Assembly (NCBI RefSeq): GCF_036227605.1
Contig: NZ_CP109487.1
Location: 6,633,501-6,697,500, forward strand
Direction: 5' to 3'
DNA from: Streptomyces sp. NBC_01439
Lineage (GTDB): Bacteria > Actinomycetota > Actinomycetes > Streptomycetales > Streptomycetaceae
DNA: 64,000 nucleotides
Shown here: one piece after another, positions 4,783-34,909 of the stretch
How positions within the stretch are numbered: position 1 is the stretch's first letter
Layout of the letters: every line of letters begins with the position of its first letter
Notes under the pieces: generated by a model
Seen by the model: only the letters and a program-made list of their open reading frames with translations
Told to the model about the DNA's origin: nothing
Database searches by the model: none
Made by a program: the position numbers and the translations under genes

Positions 4783-6057
4783 ATGCGGCGTGGCATAGCG
4801 GCCACCGCGCTGGTCGCGACCCTGGCGCTCGCGGCGACGGCTTGCGGTGGGGACGACAAGAACGCGGCCGACGGCACCAAGGCGGGCGGCGAGCTTTCCG
4901 GCACGGTTACGTACTGGGACACCTCGAACGACGCCGAGAAGGCCAGCTTCCAGAAGATCGCCGAGGCGTTCACCGCGAAGCACCCGAAGGTGACCGTCAA
5001 GTACGTCAACGTCCCGTACGGCGACGCGCAGAACAAGGTCAAGAACGCCTTCAGCAGCGGCTCCGACGCGCCTGACGTCATCCGTGCCGACGTCGGCTGG
5101 GTCGCGGACTTCGCCTCCCTGGGCTACCTCGACGAGGTCCCGGCCGACACGGCGAAGAAGGTCGACGCCGAGTTCCTCCCGCAGGCCGCGGCCAGCGGCA
5201 AGTTCGAGGGCAAGACCTACGCCGTCCCGCAGGTCATCGACAGCCTCGGCCTCTTCTACAACAAGAAGATGCTCGCCGACGCCGGCGTCCAGCCCCCCAA
5301 GACGCTGGCGGAGGTGAAGACCGCCGCCGAGGCCATCAAGGCGAAGACCGGCAAGGCCGCCCTCTACCTGCGCGGCGACGACTCCTACTGGTTCCTCCCG
5401 CTGATCTACGGTGAGGGCGGCGACCTCGTCGACGCCAAGAACAAGACGGTCACCGTCGACAACGAGGCGGGCGTCAAGGCCTTCAAGACCGCCCGCGACC
5501 TGGTCGCCTCGGGTGCGGCGATCACCAACGCCACCGACGGCTACGCCAACATGCAGACGGCCTTCAAGACCGGCGAGGCCGCCATGATGATCAACGGTCC
5601 GTGGGCCGTCGCCGACACCTACGCCGGCGACCAGTTCAAGGACAAGGCCAACCTCGGCATCGCCGCCGTCCCGGCCGGCTCGGCCAAGGCCGGCGCCCCG
5701 CAGGGCGGCCACGACCTCGCCGTCTACGCCGGCTCCAAGAACACCGCCGCCGCGCACGCCTTCGTCGAGTACATGACCTCTCAGGAGGTCCAGGTGCAGT
5801 CGACCAAGGACCTCAGCCTGCTCCCGACCCGTACCGCCGCCTACGAGCAGCCGGACGTCAAGGGCAACGAGATGGTCCAGTTCTTCAAGCCGGCCGTGGA
5901 CAAGGCCGTCGAGCGCGCCTGGATCCCGGAGAACGGATCCCTCTTCGAGCCGCTGAAGGTCGAATACACCAAGGCGATCACCGGGGCGTCGAGCCCGGAG
6001 GACGCGGCCAAGGCGGCCGGCGTCGAGTTCCGCAAGATCCTCAAGGGCTGGAAGTAA
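4783..6057 (+). CDS. malE: maltose/maltodextrin-binding lipoprotein MalE
   Basis: This is the extracytoplasmic solute-binding component (424 residues) of the maltodextrin ABC importer. A type II signal peptide ends in LALAATAC, so Cys22 should be lipidated; GGDDK follows. Typical family-1 binding protein blocks follow, such as VTYWDTSNDAEKASF near residue 43 and MINGPWAV near 268. The ATG at 4783 is chosen because GAAGGAG lies at 4771-4777 and the signal peptide starts there; the frame is open 31 codons further upstream but that stretch is promoter DNA. malF begins 7 bp after the stop. Expression is probably MalR-controlled through the upstream TTGCGCAA site. Confidence 0.95.
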   Translation: MRRGIAATALVATLALAATACGGDDKNAADGTKAGGELSGTVTYWDTSNDAEKASFQKIAEAFTAKHPKVTVKYVNVPYGDAQNKVKNAFSSGSDAPDVIRADVGWVADFASLGYLDEVPADTAKKVDAEFLPQAAASGKFEGKTYAVPQVIDSLGLFYNKKMLADAGVQPPKTLAEVKTAAEAIKAKTGKAALYLRGDDSYWFLPLIYGEGGDLVDAKNKTVTVDNEAGVKAFKTARDLVASGAAITNATDGYANMQTAFKTGEAAMMINGPWAVADTYAGDQFKDKANLGIAAVPAGSAKAGAPQGGHDLAVYAGSKNTAAAHAFVEYMTSQEVQVQSTKDLSLLPTRTAAYEQPDVKGNEMVQFFKPAVDKAVERAWIPENGSLFEPLKVEYTKAITGASSPEDAAKAAGVEFRKILKGWK

Positions 6058-6064
6058 CGAAACC

Positions 6065-7126
6065 ATGGCTGCTCACACCAGCCAGTCGGTGGCGAAGGCC
6101 GCGGGCGACGACGTCGAGAACGACGTCGCCGCCCGCGGCCGGAGCCGCAGGACTGACAGCGACAGCGGTAACCGCGGCGGTGCCCGCGGCGGGAAAGGCG
6201 CGTCCGGCCTCCGGCGCGCCGTCGGCACGCACTGGTACGCCTGGGCCATGGTCGCCCCGGTGGTGCTCGTCCTCGGCGTGATCATCGGCTGGCCGTTGGT
6301 CCGGGGCGTCTACCTGTCGCTGACCGACGCCACCGAGCGCAACGTCTCGCGCACCATCGGCGCCCGGCACATCGAGGCCACGTACCAGTTCGTCGGACTC
6401 GACAACTACGTGGACGTGCTCAGCGACCCGGTGTTCCTGCAGCGGCTGGTGTGGACGGTGATGTGGACCGTCGCGTGCGTGTCCATCACCTTCACGCTCG
6501 GTCTGGTCCTGGCCAACATGCTCAACCGGGACTTCCGGGGCCGCGCCGCCTACCGGATGGCGCTCATCCTCCCCTGGGCCGTCCCCGGCTTCGTCTCCGT
6601 CTTCGCCTGGCGGTTCCTCTTCAACCGCGACAACGGCATCCTGAACAAGATCCTCGACGGCGGCGGCATAGCCGCGATCCCGTGGCTCGACGACCCGACC
6701 TGGGCCAAGTTCTCGGTCATCACGGTCAACGTCTGGCTCGGCATCCCCTTCATGATGGTCGCCCTGCTCGGCGGCCTGCAGTCGATCCCCGGCGAGCTCT
6801 ACGAGGCCGCCGAGATGGACGGCGCCAGCGCCTGGCAGCGCTTCCGGCACATCACCCTGCCCGGGCTGCGTACGGTGAGCATGACGGTGATCCTGCTCTC
6901 CACCATCTGGACCTTCAACATGTTCCCGGTGATCTTCCTGCTCACCCGGGGCGGACCCGGCGACTCCACCGAGATCCTGGTGACGCAGGCCTTCCGCGAG
7001 GCGTTCGTGTCGAGCCCGCGCGACTTCGCCGGCTCGGCCACGTGGGGCGTCCTGATCCTCGCCCTGCTCATGATCTTCGCGCTGGTCTACCGGCGCTCGC
7101 TGCGCAAGCAGGGAGAGGTGTGGTGA
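6065..7126 (+). CDS. malF: maltose ABC transporter permease MalF
   Basis: This is an inner-membrane permease of 353 residues. A charged, disordered N-terminus of about 55 residues precedes the first membrane helix (WYAWAMVAPVVLVLGVIIGW). The MetI-like transmembrane domain ends with the EAA loop EAAEMDGASAWQRFRHITLP around residues 250-269, which docks on the ATPase. It sits between malE and malG; the stop overlaps the malG GTG start (GTGA). No ATPase gene is in the cluster, as in other streptomycetes where the shared MsiK energises sugar importers; that partner is known for the genus and inferred here. Confidence 0.94.
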   Translation: MAAHTSQSVAKAAGDDVENDVAARGRSRRTDSDSGNRGGARGGKGASGLRRAVGTHWYAWAMVAPVVLVLGVIIGWPLVRGVYLSLTDATERNVSRTIGARHIEATYQFVGLDNYVDVLSDPVFLQRLVWTVMWTVACVSITFTLGLVLANMLNRDFRGRAAYRMALILPWAVPGFVSVFAWRFLFNRDNGILNKILDGGGIAAIPWLDDPTWAKFSVITVNVWLGIPFMMVALLGGLQSIPGELYEAAEMDGASAWQRFRHITLPGLRTVSMTVILLSTIWTFNMFPVIFLLTRGGPGDSTEILVTQAFREAFVSSPRDFAGSATWGVLILALLMIFALVYRRSLRKQGEVW

Positions 7127-8040
7127 CCATGTCCACCGCGACCACCGCTCGTACGGCCACCCCCGGCAAGGCGACCCCCGGCAAGGCGACCGCCGACAAG
7201 GCGACCGCCCGCCCCCGGGGCAGCCGTTCCCCGCTCGCCTCCATCGGCCTGCACGGCACCCTCGTCGTGGCGTCCGTGATCGCCGTCTTCCCGGTGCTGT
7301 GGATCGTGCTGACCTCGCTCAAGCCGGCCAAGCACGCGGTCACCACCGACTTCGTCAAGGAACCGACCCTCAGCAACTACACGAACCTGCTGGAGCAGAG
7401 CCACTTCCTCAGCTGGTTCGGCAACTCCGTCCTGGTCGCCGGCATCACCACCGTCCTCGGTGTCTTCATCGCCGCCACCACCGGATACGCGGTCAGCCGC
7501 TTCAAGTTCCCCGGCATGAAGCCGCTCATGTGGACCCTGCTCATCACGCAGATGTTCCCGATGGCGATCCTCATCGTCCCGCTCTACAACCTCATGGGCG
7601 ACCTCGGCCTGCTCAACCAGCCGCTCGGCCTGATCATCACCTACCTCACCATCGCGGTGCCGTTCTGCGCCTGGATGATGAAGGGCTTCTTCGACACCAT
7701 CCCGGTGGAGATCGACGAATCGGGCCGGGTCGACGGACTCAACCCCTTCGGCACCTTCTGGCGCCTGATCCTGCCGCTCGCCAAGCCCGGCCTCGCCGTC
7801 ACCGGCTTCTACGCCTTCATCACCGCGTGGGGCGAGGTCGCGTACGCCTCCGCCTTCATGGTCGGCGAGGAGAACCTCACCCTGGCCGGCGGACTGCAGA
7901 CGTTCGTCACGCAGTACACCTCCAACTGGGGAGCCATGAGCGCCGCCTCGGTGCTCATCGCCATCCCCGCGGCGATCTTCTTCGTCTTCGCCCAGCGTCA
8001 CCTCGTCGCCGGGATGACGGCAGGCGCAACCAAGGGCTGA
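7123..8040 (+). CDS. malG: maltose ABC transporter permease MalG
   Basis: This is the second permease, 305 residues from the GTG at 7123, which overlaps the malF stop and follows GGGAGAGG by a few bases. The ATG at 7129 is the alternative start. The first 35 residues are a cytoplasmic tail with the short repeat TPGKA-TPGKA-TADKA. Then come six predicted membrane spans and the EAA-type loop (EIDESGRVDGLNPFGTFW) near residues 200-217. It forms the translocation pathway together with MalF. The next gene, alpha-glucosidase copy 2, begins 50 bp downstream and is likely in the same transcript. Confidence 0.94.
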   Translation: MTMSTATTARTATPGKATPGKATADKATARPRGSRSPLASIGLHGTLVVASVIAVFPVLWIVLTSLKPAKHAVTTDFVKEPTLSNYTNLLEQSHFLSWFGNSVLVAGITTVLGVFIAATTGYAVSRFKFPGMKPLMWTLLITQMFPMAILIVPLYNLMGDLGLLNQPLGLIITYLTIAVPFCAWMMKGFFDTIPVEIDESGRVDGLNPFGTFWRLILPLAKPGLAVTGFYAFITAWGEVAYASAFMVGEENLTLAGGLQTFVTQYTSNWGAMSAASVLIAIPAAIFFVFAQRHLVAGMTAGATKG

Positions 8041-8090
8041 CCACCCGAGCCTGCCCCCTCCCACCCCGGCCCGATCTCTCCAAGGACACC

Positions 8091-9740
8091 ATGACCCAGC
8101 ACCTCGCCGACGCGCTCCCCACCTCCACCGGCACGCAGCCCGGCTGGTGGAGAGAAGCGGTGATCTACCAGGTCTATCCGCGCAGCTTCGCCGACTCCAA
8201 CGGGGACGGCATGGGGGACCTCGAAGGCATCCGCAGCCGCCTGCCCTACCTGAAGGAGCTGGGCGTCGACGCCGTCTGGCTCAGCCCGTTCTACGCCTCC
8301 CCGCAGGCCGACGCCGGCTACGACGTCGCCGACTACCGGGCCATCGACCCCATGTTCGGCACCCTGCACGACGCCGACGCCGTGATCCGCGAAGCCCACG
8401 AACTGGGCCTGCGCATCATCGTGGACCTCGTCCCCAACCACTGCTCCGACCAGCACGAATGGTTCAAGCAGGCGCTGCGTGAAGGCCCCGGCACCCCGCT
8501 GCGCGAGCGCTTCCACTTCCGCCCCGGACAGGGCGACAACGGGGAGCTGCCGCCCAACGACTGGGAGTCGATCTTCGGTGGCCCGGCCTGGACCCGGGTC
8601 GCGGACGGCGAGTGGTACCTGCACCTCTTCGCCCCCGAGCAGCCCGACTTCAACTGGGAGCACCCCGCGGTCCAGGACGAGTTCCGCTCCATCCTGCGCT
8701 TCTGGCTCGACCTCGGCGTCGACGGCTTCCGCGTCGACGTCGCCCACGGCCTGGTCAAGGCGCCCGGCCTGCCCGATCTCGGAGCCAAGGACCAGCTGAA
8801 GCTGCTCGGCAACGACGTCATGCCCTTCTTCGACCAGGACGGCGTCCACGAGATCTACCGGTCCTGGCGCCGGATCCTCGACGAGTACGAGGGCGCCCGC
8901 GTCCTGGTCGCCGAGGCATGGACCCCGACCGTCGAGCGCACGGCCCTCTACGTCCGCCCCGACGAGATGCAGCAGGCCTTCAACTTCCAGTACCTGACCA
9001 GCGACTGGGAGGCGAGCGCGCTCCGCGAGGTCATCGACGGCTCGCTGGCCGCCATGCGCACCGTCGGCGCCCCCACCACCTGGGTGCTGTCCAACCACGA
9101 CGTCACCCGGCACGCCACCCGCTTCGCCAACCCCGCGGGCCTCGGCACCCAGCTGCGCGAGCCCGGCGACCGCGAGCTGGGTCTGCGGCGAGCCCGTGCG
9201 GCGAGCCTGCTGATGCTGGCCCTGCCCGGTTCGGCGTACGTCTACCAGGGCGAGGAGCTCGGCCTGCCCGACGTCACCGACCTGCCGGACGAGGTCCGCC
9301 AGGACCCGTCGTTCACCCGCGCGGCCGGCCAGGACGGCTTCCGCGACGGCTGCCGGGTCCCCATCCCGTGGTCGGGGACCGAGGCCCCGTACGGCTTCGG
9401 CACCGGCGGCAGCTGGCTCCCGCAGCCGGAGTCCTGGGCGGATCTGAGCGTGGCGGCGCAGACCGGCGACCCGTCCTCCACCCTGGAGCTGTACCGGGCC
9501 GCCCTGCGGCTGCGCCGCGAGCACCCGGACCTGGGCGCGGGCGAGTCGGTGGACTGGCAGGAGGCCCCCGAGGGCGTCCTGGTCTTCCGCCGCGGGGCCT
9601 TCCTCTGCACCGCCAACACCACCGGCACGGCGGTACGGTTCCCCGTCGCCGGCGAGGTACTGCTCTCCAGCGGCGCGACGGTCGAGGACGGCGTGCTGCC
9701 GGCCGACACCACGGTGTGGTGGCAGGTGACGGCGGGGTGA
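8091..9740 (+). CDS. GH13 alpha-glucosidase, copy 2
   Basis: This cytoplasmic enzyme of 549 residues has no signal peptide and is paralogous to the protein at 2806-4560. The GH13 blocks are DLVPNH near residue 113, GFRVDVAH (nucleophile D near 215), LVAEAW (acid E near 274) and SNHD near 333. It starts at ATG 8091, with CAAGGA 5-10 bases upstream. Its position directly after malG matches the place of the maltose-operon alpha-glucosidase in S. coelicolor, so this copy is probably the ancestral one. The stop overlaps the GTG of the next regulator gene (GTGA). It lacks the Gly/Ala/Val/Asp-rich insertion seen in copy 1. Confidence 0.9.
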   Translation: MTQHLADALPTSTGTQPGWWREAVIYQVYPRSFADSNGDGMGDLEGIRSRLPYLKELGVDAVWLSPFYASPQADAGYDVADYRAIDPMFGTLHDADAVIREAHELGLRIIVDLVPNHCSDQHEWFKQALREGPGTPLRERFHFRPGQGDNGELPPNDWESIFGGPAWTRVADGEWYLHLFAPEQPDFNWEHPAVQDEFRSILRFWLDLGVDGFRVDVAHGLVKAPGLPDLGAKDQLKLLGNDVMPFFDQDGVHEIYRSWRRILDEYEGARVLVAEAWTPTVERTALYVRPDEMQQAFNFQYLTSDWEASALREVIDGSLAAMRTVGAPTTWVLSNHDVTRHATRFANPAGLGTQLREPGDRELGLRRARAASLLMLALPGSAYVYQGEELGLPDVTDLPDEVRQDPSFTRAAGQDGFRDGCRVPIPWSGTEAPYGFGTGGSWLPQPESWADLSVAAQTGDPSSTLELYRAALRLRREHPDLGAGESVDWQEAPEGVLVFRRGAFLCTANTTGTAVRFPVAGEVLLSSGATVEDGVLPADTTVWWQVTAG

Positions 9741-10855: not shown

Positions 10856-10907
10856 CGGTATCGGGGATGGGACTGACGGGAAACCCCCATGCCCATCCCC
10901 GATACCG
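10856..10907. repeat. hairpin related to the arms of the 33-35 kb element
   Basis: A 16-bp perfect stem (10856-10871 with 10892-10907, core TATCGGGGATGGG) encloses a 20-nt loop that contains ACTGACGGGAAAC. The loop plus right stem aligns with 34826-34867, the outer arm of the large inverted repeat, over about 42 bp with some ten differences. It may end the mal operon transcript, although no U-run follows. In 10739-11105 I see otherwise only the amylase operator at 11017-11044 and no gene. Confidence 0.6.
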
Positions 10908-11016
10908 CCCGAGAGGACCCCGCCCTCCCCGAAGCCCCCGCCGCACGTCGAGGTCAACTCGCCTTCTCCTGGACGGAGTCCGGGCCGGACCAGGAGGACA
11001 CGCCTCGGAAACAATT

Positions 11017-33236: not shown

Positions 33237-33690
33237 GGCGGGGGTGGTGGGCGGGTCGGGATGAAGGGGGCGGGAGCTACTCGATCGGCATCAGGGATGG
33301 GTTTGGTGGTTTCCCGTCAGTCCGATCGTCTCCGTGTCGGGCCGGTCCCTCAAGGGCGCTCCTTCGTCGCGTCGCTTCGCGATGTCGCTGCGCTCCACCC
33401 TTGACCGACCGTCCCGCCACGGAGAACCGAAGACTGCCGAGAAACCCCCAAAAGAACGGGCCGGGCACTCAAGGACCAGGACGGGCAGTTGGAGACACCC
33501 ATCCCTGTCGGGCGCGAAGAGCCACGACCGAGAGACGGGGCCCATCCCGACCCGGGCCCGCGTCGGGGGAAGCGCCCCCGATCGCTACGCGCTCCGCACG
33601 TCTCAGCGTCCAACGGCCGTCTTGGGCTGGTCATGGGCCGCCCACGGCCCCAGGTGCTGTCACTGATGGCGTCCGACGACCGGCCGGGGC
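33237..33690 (+). repeat. left arm of a 1.67-kb inverted-repeat element
   Basis: This stretch is the reverse complement of 34462-34909 with roughly 90% identity by eye. Blocks such as GACTGCCGAGAAACCCCCAA and AAGAACGGGCCGGGCACTCA match perfectly. The main differences are a substituted stretch at 33379-33395 and one at 33490-33530. It also contains the last 27 bases of the aminotransferase-like gene at 34882, in inverted copy. I find no gene with streptomycete codon bias in it. Confidence 0.9.
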
Positions 33691-33860
33691 CAGCGACCAA
33701 CCGTCCACGGCGTCGGGTGTTCTTGCTGGGCGCGCCCCGGCGGCCGCCTTGGGTTGGACATGAGTCGCCCACGGCGTCGGCCGTTCCCGCCGAGGATGCC
33801 CGGCGACCGTCTGCGGCCGGCCACAAAGCCGCAGACGACCTTCAGGTGCTTCCCTCGAGA
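33614..33860 (+). repeat. left set of degenerate 60-66-bp repeats
   Basis: About four units are visible, each carrying a version of GGCCGTCTTGGGCTGG, then CCGCCCACGG, then GTCCGACGA. They start near 33614, 33680, 33739 and 33807. The orientation is opposite to the units on the right side, so both sets point to the palindromic core at 33903-34036. The first unit lies inside the left arm. Confidence 0.65.
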
Positions 33861-33902
33861 GGCGCCTGACGGCTATCCGGGGGCGGAGAGGCGTGGAGCA
33901 GC

Positions 33903-34036
33903 GGCTATTTCGTAGTGGGTGCGGGTCAGTGCGTGCGGGTGGCCCGAGAGGTCGCCGGTTTGCCCTAACTGCCCCTATTTGGAAGTGGGTTTGTGGTGTC
34001 GTGTTCGCGCTGACCCGCATCCACTACGAAATAGCC
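33903..34036. repeat. palindromic core of the inverted-repeat element
   Basis: A 27-bp sequence beginning GGCTATTTCGTAGTGG (33903-33929) is inverted at 34010-34036 with one mismatch. A third, direct, weaker copy (CTATTTGGAAGTGGGT) starts at 33975. The inner 80 bp are relatively AT-richer than the flanks. The function is unknown; the symmetry is compatible with a recombination or replication site or with an RNA stem. Confidence 0.75.
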
Positions 34037-34180
34037 GAGCTGCGGGCCGTCCGCCCCTCCCATCCGCTCTCATCCCACTGACGACAGCCGGCCGCGGGCA
34101 TGGAGAAGCGCGTAGCGATCCGAGGCGGCCCGCGGTCGGCCACGGACGGTCTCCGGACGCCTTCGGCGAGAGCGCCCGAG

Positions 34181-34563
34181 GCCGTGGGCGGCTTGTGGCC
34201 AGCCCCGAGACGGCCGTCGGGACGCGTGTCGAGCGTCGGACTCGGGGCCGTGGGCGGCTTGTGGCCAGCCAGAGGCGGTGGCCGGGCGCGTTCGGTGGGA
34301 ACACCTGGGGCCGTGGGCGGCCTGTGTCCGGCCCCGAGGCGGCCGTCGGGACGCAGGTCGAGCGTAGGACCTGGGGCCGTGGGCTGGCTTATGCCTACCG
34401 CCGGGCGGTCGTCGGACGCATATCGAGCGCCGGACCCGAGGTCATGGGCGGCTTATGCCCAGCCCCGGCCGGTCGTCGGACGCCATCAGTGAGAGCACCT
34501 GGGGCCGTGGGCGGCCCATGCCCAGCCCAAGACGGCCGTCGGGCGCTGAGAGATGGGGGGCGC
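34181..34563 (+). repeat. right set of degenerate 63-66-bp repeats
   Basis: The anchor G(C/T)C(G/A)TGGGC recurs at 34181, 34247, 34310, 34376, 34441 and 34504, steps of 66, 63, 66, 65 and 63 bp. A weaker unit precedes it near 34119. Each unit contains a CCAGCCC block and then CGGCCGTCGGGACGC or a variant. The steps are not all multiples of three and stop codons fall in all frames across the set, so it is not a repeat protein. Units are contiguous, unlike CRISPR. Confidence 0.8.
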
Positions 34564-34909
34564 GTAGCGATCGGACGCGCCCACTGACCCGGGCCCGGGT
34601 CGGGATGGGCCCCGTCTGGGGATCGTGGCCTGCCGGGATCTGCCTGGGTGTGTCCGACTGCCCGTCCTGGTCCTTGAGTGCCCGGCCCGTTCTTTTGGGG
34701 GTTTCTCGGCAGTCTTCGGTTCTCCGTGGCGGGACGGTCGGTCAAGGGTGGCCGTAGGCCATCACGCAGTGACGCGACGAAGGAGCGCCCTTGAGGGACC
34801 GGCCCGACACGGAGACGATCGGACTGATGGGAAACCACCAAACCCATCCCTGATGCCGATCGAGTAGCTCCCGCCACCCCTTCATCCCGACCCGCCCACC
34901 ACCCCCGCC
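34462..34909 (-). repeat. right arm of the 1.67-kb inverted-repeat element
   Basis: This is the inverted partner of 33237-33690. Its outer end runs 28 bp into the 3' end of the PLP-dependent regulator gene, whose stop codon (34884-34882) is therefore part of the repeat. The section 34826-34867 is also related to the hairpin at 10856-10907. Confidence 0.9.

Follow-up and report, generated by a model that had tools for sequence, protein, structure and literature searches.

A probable family of mobile DNA cassettes in Streptomyces whose ends resemble a plasmid-borne DNA fold

What is a 1.67-kb stretch of near-perfect inverted symmetry, apparently free of genes, doing between two genes of a Streptomyces chromosome? 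The stretch lies in a window of 64,000 nucleotides (the whole piece of DNA analysed here, to which coordinates refer unless another locus is named) from Streptomyces sp. NBC_01439, whose genome, G000, is a single contig of 9.58 Mb. An earlier note, made from the letters alone, had described two inverted arms, units of 63-66 bp facing the centre and a 27-bp inverted pair in the middle, and had put forward three possible explanations: a giant hairpin of RNA, the remnant of a palindromic mobile element, or a site of recombination or replication.

The inverted arms are real. Most of their outer part is 96% (33266-33384 against 34760-34878) to 98% (33395-33501 against 34645-34751) complementary, and their inner part (33572-33718 against 34434-34580) 86%. 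Centre-facing units of about 65 bp exist as well, albeit not in the numbers first given, about four on the left and seven on the right: a strict search with a 25-mer, allowing up to 8 mismatches, found two on the left and five on the right, where shuffled sequence averages 0.32 matches, and the right array is also visible as direct repeats D1-D3 in a self-comparison. The 27-bp pair was confirmed and sits within longer arms of 32 nt, a layout repeated at 4805-4836 and 4909-4940 of locus L191. As the earlier note had stated, there is no obvious protein-like frame, in that no frame in the element passes a codon-position GC filter; the filter is weak evidence on gene absence, having also overlooked two conserved genes in another copy (L014), and mechanical ORFs inside the element reach 222 aa. 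The borders of the element in Table 1 are approximate and were placed using an empty site (L126) and the arms of other copies. Elsewhere in the window, 10866-10925 is a lone 60-bp remnant of the outer arm part with 80% identity, and similar short arm remnants are found at L022 and L024.

Table 1. Features of the element and its borders in the window
Feature	Position	Strand	Basis or remark
Putative mobile element proper, about 1.6 kb, near-symmetrical, gene not detected inside	33270..34875		
Left arm palindrome, ~150 nt	33302..33452	+	Self-inverse match and DNA fold
Right arm palindrome	34694..34842	-	Self-inverse match and DNA fold
Left core, TCAAGGG...CCCTTGA	33350..33404	+	Hairpin 2 standard; hairpin 3 unformed
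Right core	34742..34794	-	Hairpins 2 and 3 standard
-35-like TTGAGG, left arm	33348..33353	-	Outward-reading
-10-like GACGAT, left arm	33325..33330	-	Spacer 17, outward-reading
-35-like TTGAGG, right arm	34791..34796	+	Outward-reading
-10-like GACGAT, right arm	34814..34819	+	Spacer 17, outward-reading
Left units, centre-facing	33625..33776	-	25-mer matches at 33625, 33752
Right array of ~65-bp units, centre-facing	34180..34527	+	25-mer matches at 34180, 34246, 34309, 34440, 34503
Central inverted pair	33902-33933/34006-34037		32-nt arms, 94% complementary, 72 nt between
Inverted copy of MocR-like gene 3' end, flank-derived duplication, outside element	33237..33269		
Native MocR-like gene 3' end (stop codon 34882-34884) and five bases beyond	34877..34909		

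The symmetry does run out to 33237 and 34909, as first described, but its outermost 33 bp are not the end of the element. The two outer segments are identical as an inverted repeat at 33/33 positions, and the gene part of the right one is present in the relative NBC_01214 too, where the element is absent. This outermost repeat is host flank copied inverted, and the flank duplication at this element is inverted, not direct. The inverted symmetry seems to have extended beyond the border of the element, which template switching or gene conversion involving the two arms could explain.

NBC_01214 supplies the comparison of strains with and without the element that had been proposed: there the membrane and MocR-like genes are adjacent, with 122 bp from stop to start, and their proteins are 95% and 93% identical, respectively, to those of G000. 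A scan for the neighbouring membrane gene yielded 36 named loci; the same two genes are adjacent, and the element likewise absent, at L128, L131, L135 and L136. At L147 (5207-6629) a pair of inverted core matches occupies the same gap beside the membrane gene, and at L132 (6629-6847) and L152 (5823-6930) arm matches lie just upstream of that gene, the MocR-like gene being out of view. Because of these three matches, either the place has been reused repeatedly or an old insertion has been lost in some lineages, and the absence of the window copy in NBC_01214 may itself reflect an old insertion since lost there.

The element has many relatives. Searched against its own genome it gave 43 matches at E ≤0.001, self-matches counted, with about a dozen further places, and 24 of 61 genomes of the genus, its own included, contain matches. 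Several copies consist of two inverted arms of ~400 bp with ~220-1000 bp in between. A covariance model of the core region of the arms was positive in 60 of 150 genus genomes (own included) and, across the phylum, in 17 of 396 genomes and 13 of 236 genera, counts that include the window's genome and its genus. Since relatives of arm, unit and core are found at other places in this genome as well as in other species, the structure is neither a product of chance nor the assembly artefact that the earlier note had considered. A literature search covering titles and the beginnings of abstracts, with subscription papers mostly outside it, returned no report of such an element, and the family is apparently undescribed.

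Comparison of G000 with NBC_01214 suggests that members of the family move as units. A second full copy, L191, lies at a different place in NBC_01214, with arms, units, central pair and an identical 72-nt spacer, and is missing at the matching place of G000, where a 137-bp segment containing a different small palindrome lies instead. The central pair and its spacer also recur, diverged, in a copy at 3.867 Mb; they are the element's own part, and we rejected the idea of an IS630-type MITE sitting at the centre. Conversely, the 2.28-kb copy L014 of G000, with two ORFs between its arms, is precisely absent in NBC_01214, where the flank matches meet within a base and no clear target-site duplication is seen. 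Both L014 ORFs are conserved: one has 24 listed relatives at E ≤0.001, the other at least 1250 among 7998 scored candidates, the query being counted in each case. This presence and absence between relatives, together with a two-ended multi-copy family, supports the palindromic mobile element that had been one of the original suggestions. As a separate observation, L019 of G000 (7038-8827) is a 1.8-kb insert with one arm and ORFs that look NUDIX-like by eye, and its counterpart in NBC_01214 (L198, 5718-5861) retains ~110 bp of the opposite arm half.

Conservation within the arms is highest in a core of 46-70 nt, which in its clearest form (L039) reads TCAAGGG-CGC(TTC)GCG-TCGCC(TTC)GGCGA-TGGCCC(TGC)GGGCCA-CCCTTGA, that is, a closing stem and three abutting hairpins which together form a four-way junction. 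In many cores hairpin 1 is enlarged or irregular, and some, including the left core of the window, have no hairpin 3. Hairpin 2 has a TNC loop closed by C-G in 59 of 61 cores, though its stem varies, and hairpin 3 fits the pattern in 40 of the 61, with a TNC loop in 39 of those. On the opposite strand the hairpin 2 loop becomes C(GNA)G, a loop that is very stable in DNA; that C(GNA)G loops mark the acting strand was considered and dropped, since the strand assumed to be transferred bears the TNC loops. An outer stem with a two-by-two bubble extends outward in the same register.

Covariation across 40 aligned cores shows that this fold is conserved. In 11 of 26 pairs both sides vary; doubly changed cells number 61, whereas shuffles give 14, and the proportion of paired cells is 93%, falling to 29-49% when the partner is slid. 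The 1037 cells comprise 961 Watson-Crick pairs, 6 G-T and 16 A-C. On this pattern of substitution the fold is conserved at the level of DNA, with no support for a plus-strand RNA, and it would act as DNA rather than RNA because its compensatory pairs change almost without G-U.

The core also occurs singly, on plasmids and in other genera. A lone core was found on many actinobacterial plasmids (78 records at E ≤5, of which 30 were listed, the weak ones partly chance matches), and the model matched all 15 plasmid stretches that were fetched, from 14 genera. It had no match up to E 0.1 in pIJ101 (L305), and on this ground we rejected an identity with the sti/sso sites of that plasmid. Neither the element nor the core of L090 had a match in a phage collection, and a phage origin was likewise rejected.

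We looked at the surroundings of the core in 23 plasmid contexts (L088-L090, L293-L304 and L306-L313), hand-picked from the matches and including some near relatives. In ten of them (L090, L294-L298, L300, L302, L304 and L313) the mobC-relaxase genes end at a distance of 0.2-1.5 kb from the core, the side and the orientation being the same in all ten; at L302 and L313 the first of these genes is unnamed, the second at L302 being a relaxase by Pfam. A MobF relaxase adjoins the core at L301 and L310, on opposite sides, and L303 combines an ArdC-family gene with a TraM-domain protein. L307 stops at the end of its record and shares a neighbouring resolvase-Fic operon with several of the ten mobC-relaxase contexts, and in 9 of the 23 the fetched stretch contains no transfer gene. 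In L218 and L227, from two genomes outside Streptomyces, the core is followed by a gene of ArdC type. Because the same fold adjoins transfer genes on part of the plasmids, a link to DNA transfer or replication is plausible for the arm core, and to this extent the suggestion of a recombination or replication site survives. Two features of these plasmids deserve separate mention: a common operon of VbhA antitoxin, Fic and resolvase ends beside the core in L294, L295, L300, L304 and L307, and L293 (1-1579) is a 1579-bp Curtobacterium plasmid with a core, whose only annotated gene encodes a ribbon-helix-helix protein and on which no Rep is annotated.

Next to the core lies a promoter-like signature, TTGAC-N16-18-nAnnnT, on the strand reading away from the core's TCAAGGG side. 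In the elements of Streptomyces this direction is outward, and in the ten mobC-relaxase plasmids it is toward mobC. An nAnnnT motif 16-18 bases past TTGAC(G) or a variant was present in 15 of the 23 plasmid cores against 1.46 expected, with 0/23 on the other side; expected counts here and below come from shuffling each flank, a statistic that leaves kinship between cores aside. The corresponding figures were 5 of 15 for cores of other genera (0.86 expected), 15 of 49 for type-1 Streptomyces arms (2.34 expected) and 14 of 14 for type-2 arms (0.76 expected), with none on the other side in any of the three.

In DNA folds of the 15 signature-bearing plasmid cores, the -35 TTGA(C/G) sits in the closing stem and the -10 is 63% unpaired, as compared with 22% for the spacer, whereas in type-1 Streptomyces arms the two scarcely differ (26% unpaired for the -10, 20% for the spacer). 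Both arms of the window have the arrangement TTGAGG-17-GACGAT, with the -10 at the edge of a small bulge in the DNA fold. For L293, L298, L301 and L302, four of 15 plasmid stretches, a structure other than the cloverleaf has the lowest energy when the longer stretch is folded as DNA. At L218, L227 and L303 the signature reads away from the ArdC-type gene, and the idea that the core is the promoter of a downstream ArdC-type gene was discarded for this reason; at L298, L302 and L313 it faces the mobC-relaxase genes. Given these directions, gene expression and priming of the complementary strand fit equally well. By analogy with the sites discussed below, the fold may be a single-stranded-DNA promoter or primer site, a reading that we regard as plausible though somewhat short of probable.

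The explanation that we consider probable is that the window element belongs to a Streptomyces-wide family of non-autonomous mobile DNA cassettes whose ends are plasmid-type single-stranded-DNA sites. What lies between the ends bears on this. Among 40 further members from 14 genomes, the GC-frame filter, which may overlook genes, sees genes in 12 and none in 28. By Pfam the cargo includes acetyltransferases (two in L253), an alpha/beta hydrolase with a PadR regulator, a TetR regulator with an aldo/keto reductase, glyoxalases (L258 and L267), a glycosyltransferase, and CYTH, class-IV aminotransferase and SnoaL-like proteins. In the window's own genome, inverted arms at L018 (7496-12835) enclose an ATP-grasp peptide-maturase/methyltransferase cluster and an NsdA-family regulator. 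A second subfamily (G371, G486 and G026) has ends that begin near GTGnnCGTTGGG. The sole transposase in the 40 interiors is of Mutator type (L254) and looks like a nested IS, and with the GC-frame filter and Pfam no recurrent transposase or one of the family's own was found in them. Two guesses as to the cargo were given up: PADLOC had no defence match among 10 cargo proteins, and the ORFs of L015, read by eye as a toxin-antitoxin pair, had no match in Pfam, NCBIfam or PADLOC and a codon-position GC that is not gene-like.

Two inverted ends, interiors without their own transposase and the presence of cargo would also be expected of an ordinary MITE or mobile insertion cassette (MIC) of a known IS family, moved by a transposase in trans, in which the cloverleaf would be a by-product, for example a terminator shielding against read-through; the positions near gene ends and the terminator-like palindromes suit this as well. 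Like MITEs, the elements have terminal inverted repeats, no gene of their own and multiple copies; like MITEs and MICs taken together, they are gene-free or cargo-bearing between inverted repeats, the transposase being absent; and precise presence and absence of a cargo-bearing unit was seen once, at L014. That precise site is, however, without a clear target-site duplication, conservation peaks in the internal core and not at the outermost bases, and the core exists singly on plasmids and in other genera. Unlike MITEs and MICs, the elements have long structured arms (~150-450 bp), and no related IS was found. We therefore regard a known-IS origin as possible but distinctly the less likely course.

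It is improbable, in our judgement, that the arms are passive REP-like intergenic repeats, paired by chance or recombination, with the enclosed genes as mere neighbours. REP and BIME sequences are dispersed intergenic palindromes that are sometimes paired, and solo cores do exist here: 155 of 279 core positions are in close pairs and the remainder are solo, although contig ends conceal some partners. L193 lacks the right arm of L016 and has ~400 bp of different sequence in its place, and between L015 (7581-9387) and L192 (4541-6277) the inter-arm segment is inverted between G000 and NBC_01214 with collinear flanks, as recombination between inverted repeats would give. GntR-type genes of similar look lie between the arms in both L016 and L060, as neighbours would. 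Against passive pairing, 76 of 78 neighbouring core pairs less than 4 kb apart face inward, with one minus-minus and one plus-plus; the positions were copied by hand from lists that give at least these matches for the 150 genus genomes and the phylum, three G042 positions, with no close neighbour listed on their contigs, being left out. The 75 inward pairs that were measured span 567-3142 bp, with a median of 1187. Whole units with the 72-nt-spaced centre recur at different places (window and L191), and both arms with two genes are precisely absent in a relative (L014 against NBC_01214). Unlike REP and BIME, the Streptomyces element is larger, two-ended with fixed polarity and able to carry genes.

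An RNA element, either a giant non-coding RNA of the kind first suggested or a bidirectional transcription terminator, is less probable still: it could draw on the location beside gene ends and on the capacity of both core strands to fold (the model scores both strands of 11 plasmid stretches, the plus always higher), but the window has no Rfam match at gathering score (three matches in the element, at E 0.5-3.4, are far under the gathering scores), and compensatory change without an excess of G-T over A-C disfavours a plus-strand RNA, the small A-C surplus permitting one on the minus strand. GC-rich hairpins with TNC loops, a likeness to the telomere palindromes of Streptomyces, are visible by eye at the chromosome ends of G038 and G054; unlike those palindromes, the element has no convincing sequence match at the ends of four chromosomes (best E 0.03), and a telomere relic was rejected.

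Frpo/ssi sites were reportedly described by Masai and Arai in 1997 as single-stranded DNA promoters of F-type plasmids. More recent papers present Frpo as a fold of single-stranded DNA that restores -10 and -35 boxes and lies in the leading region (PMC9849209) and place Frpo/ssi sites across conjugative elements (PMC11541004). The core resembles these sites in layout and partly in location, being a plasmid-borne, predicted single-strand fold with -35-like and -10-like elements that lies near transfer genes on part of the plasmids, with the -35 in a stem and the -10 mostly unpaired in the plasmid cores. Unlike Frpo, the actinobacterial core is a junction of small triloop hairpins, and in Streptomyces the cores form inverted pairs, placed close to the two ends of mobile cassettes in the chromosome.

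A mechanism can be proposed for cassettes with ends of plasmid type. Two inverted arms flank a middle that is gene-free as far as seen, as in the window element, or that holds captured genes, and each arm carries the conserved fold, in which an outer stem and the closing stem TCAAGGG/CCCTTGA surround small C(TNC)G-loop hairpins, three of them abutting in the clearest copies. On single-stranded DNA the fold would rebuild a promoter or primer site for the host RNA polymerase, as Frpo/ssi does on incoming conjugative plasmids. Since the sites lie in inverted orientation, each strand of the element would have one of them near its 5' end, in the same polarity, which would allow single-stranded intermediates of both polarities to be copied. 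The RNA polymerase and DNA polymerase of the host would convert either single strand to double-stranded DNA, and the cutting and joining enzyme would act in trans. That the element moves through such a single-stranded stage, with one of the two inverted sites always in the active polarity, is a tentative proposal. It is equally speculative that chromosomal cassettes took over a plasmid single-stranded-DNA promoter or primer site as both of their ends and that, with no transposase of their own, they pick up and spread genes of any kind.

We believe that the locus is of interest beyond this one chromosome, as it ties a dispersed, sometimes gene-carrying chromosomal element to a conserved DNA fold that is found across the plasmids of many genera of actinobacteria, among them plasmids from bacteria of skin and of soil. 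Should the fold prove to be a single-stranded-DNA promoter, Actinobacteria would have a counterpart of Frpo, of which titles and the beginnings of abstracts in the literature searched hold no report. It would also suggest a route by which genes hop between plasmid and chromosome.
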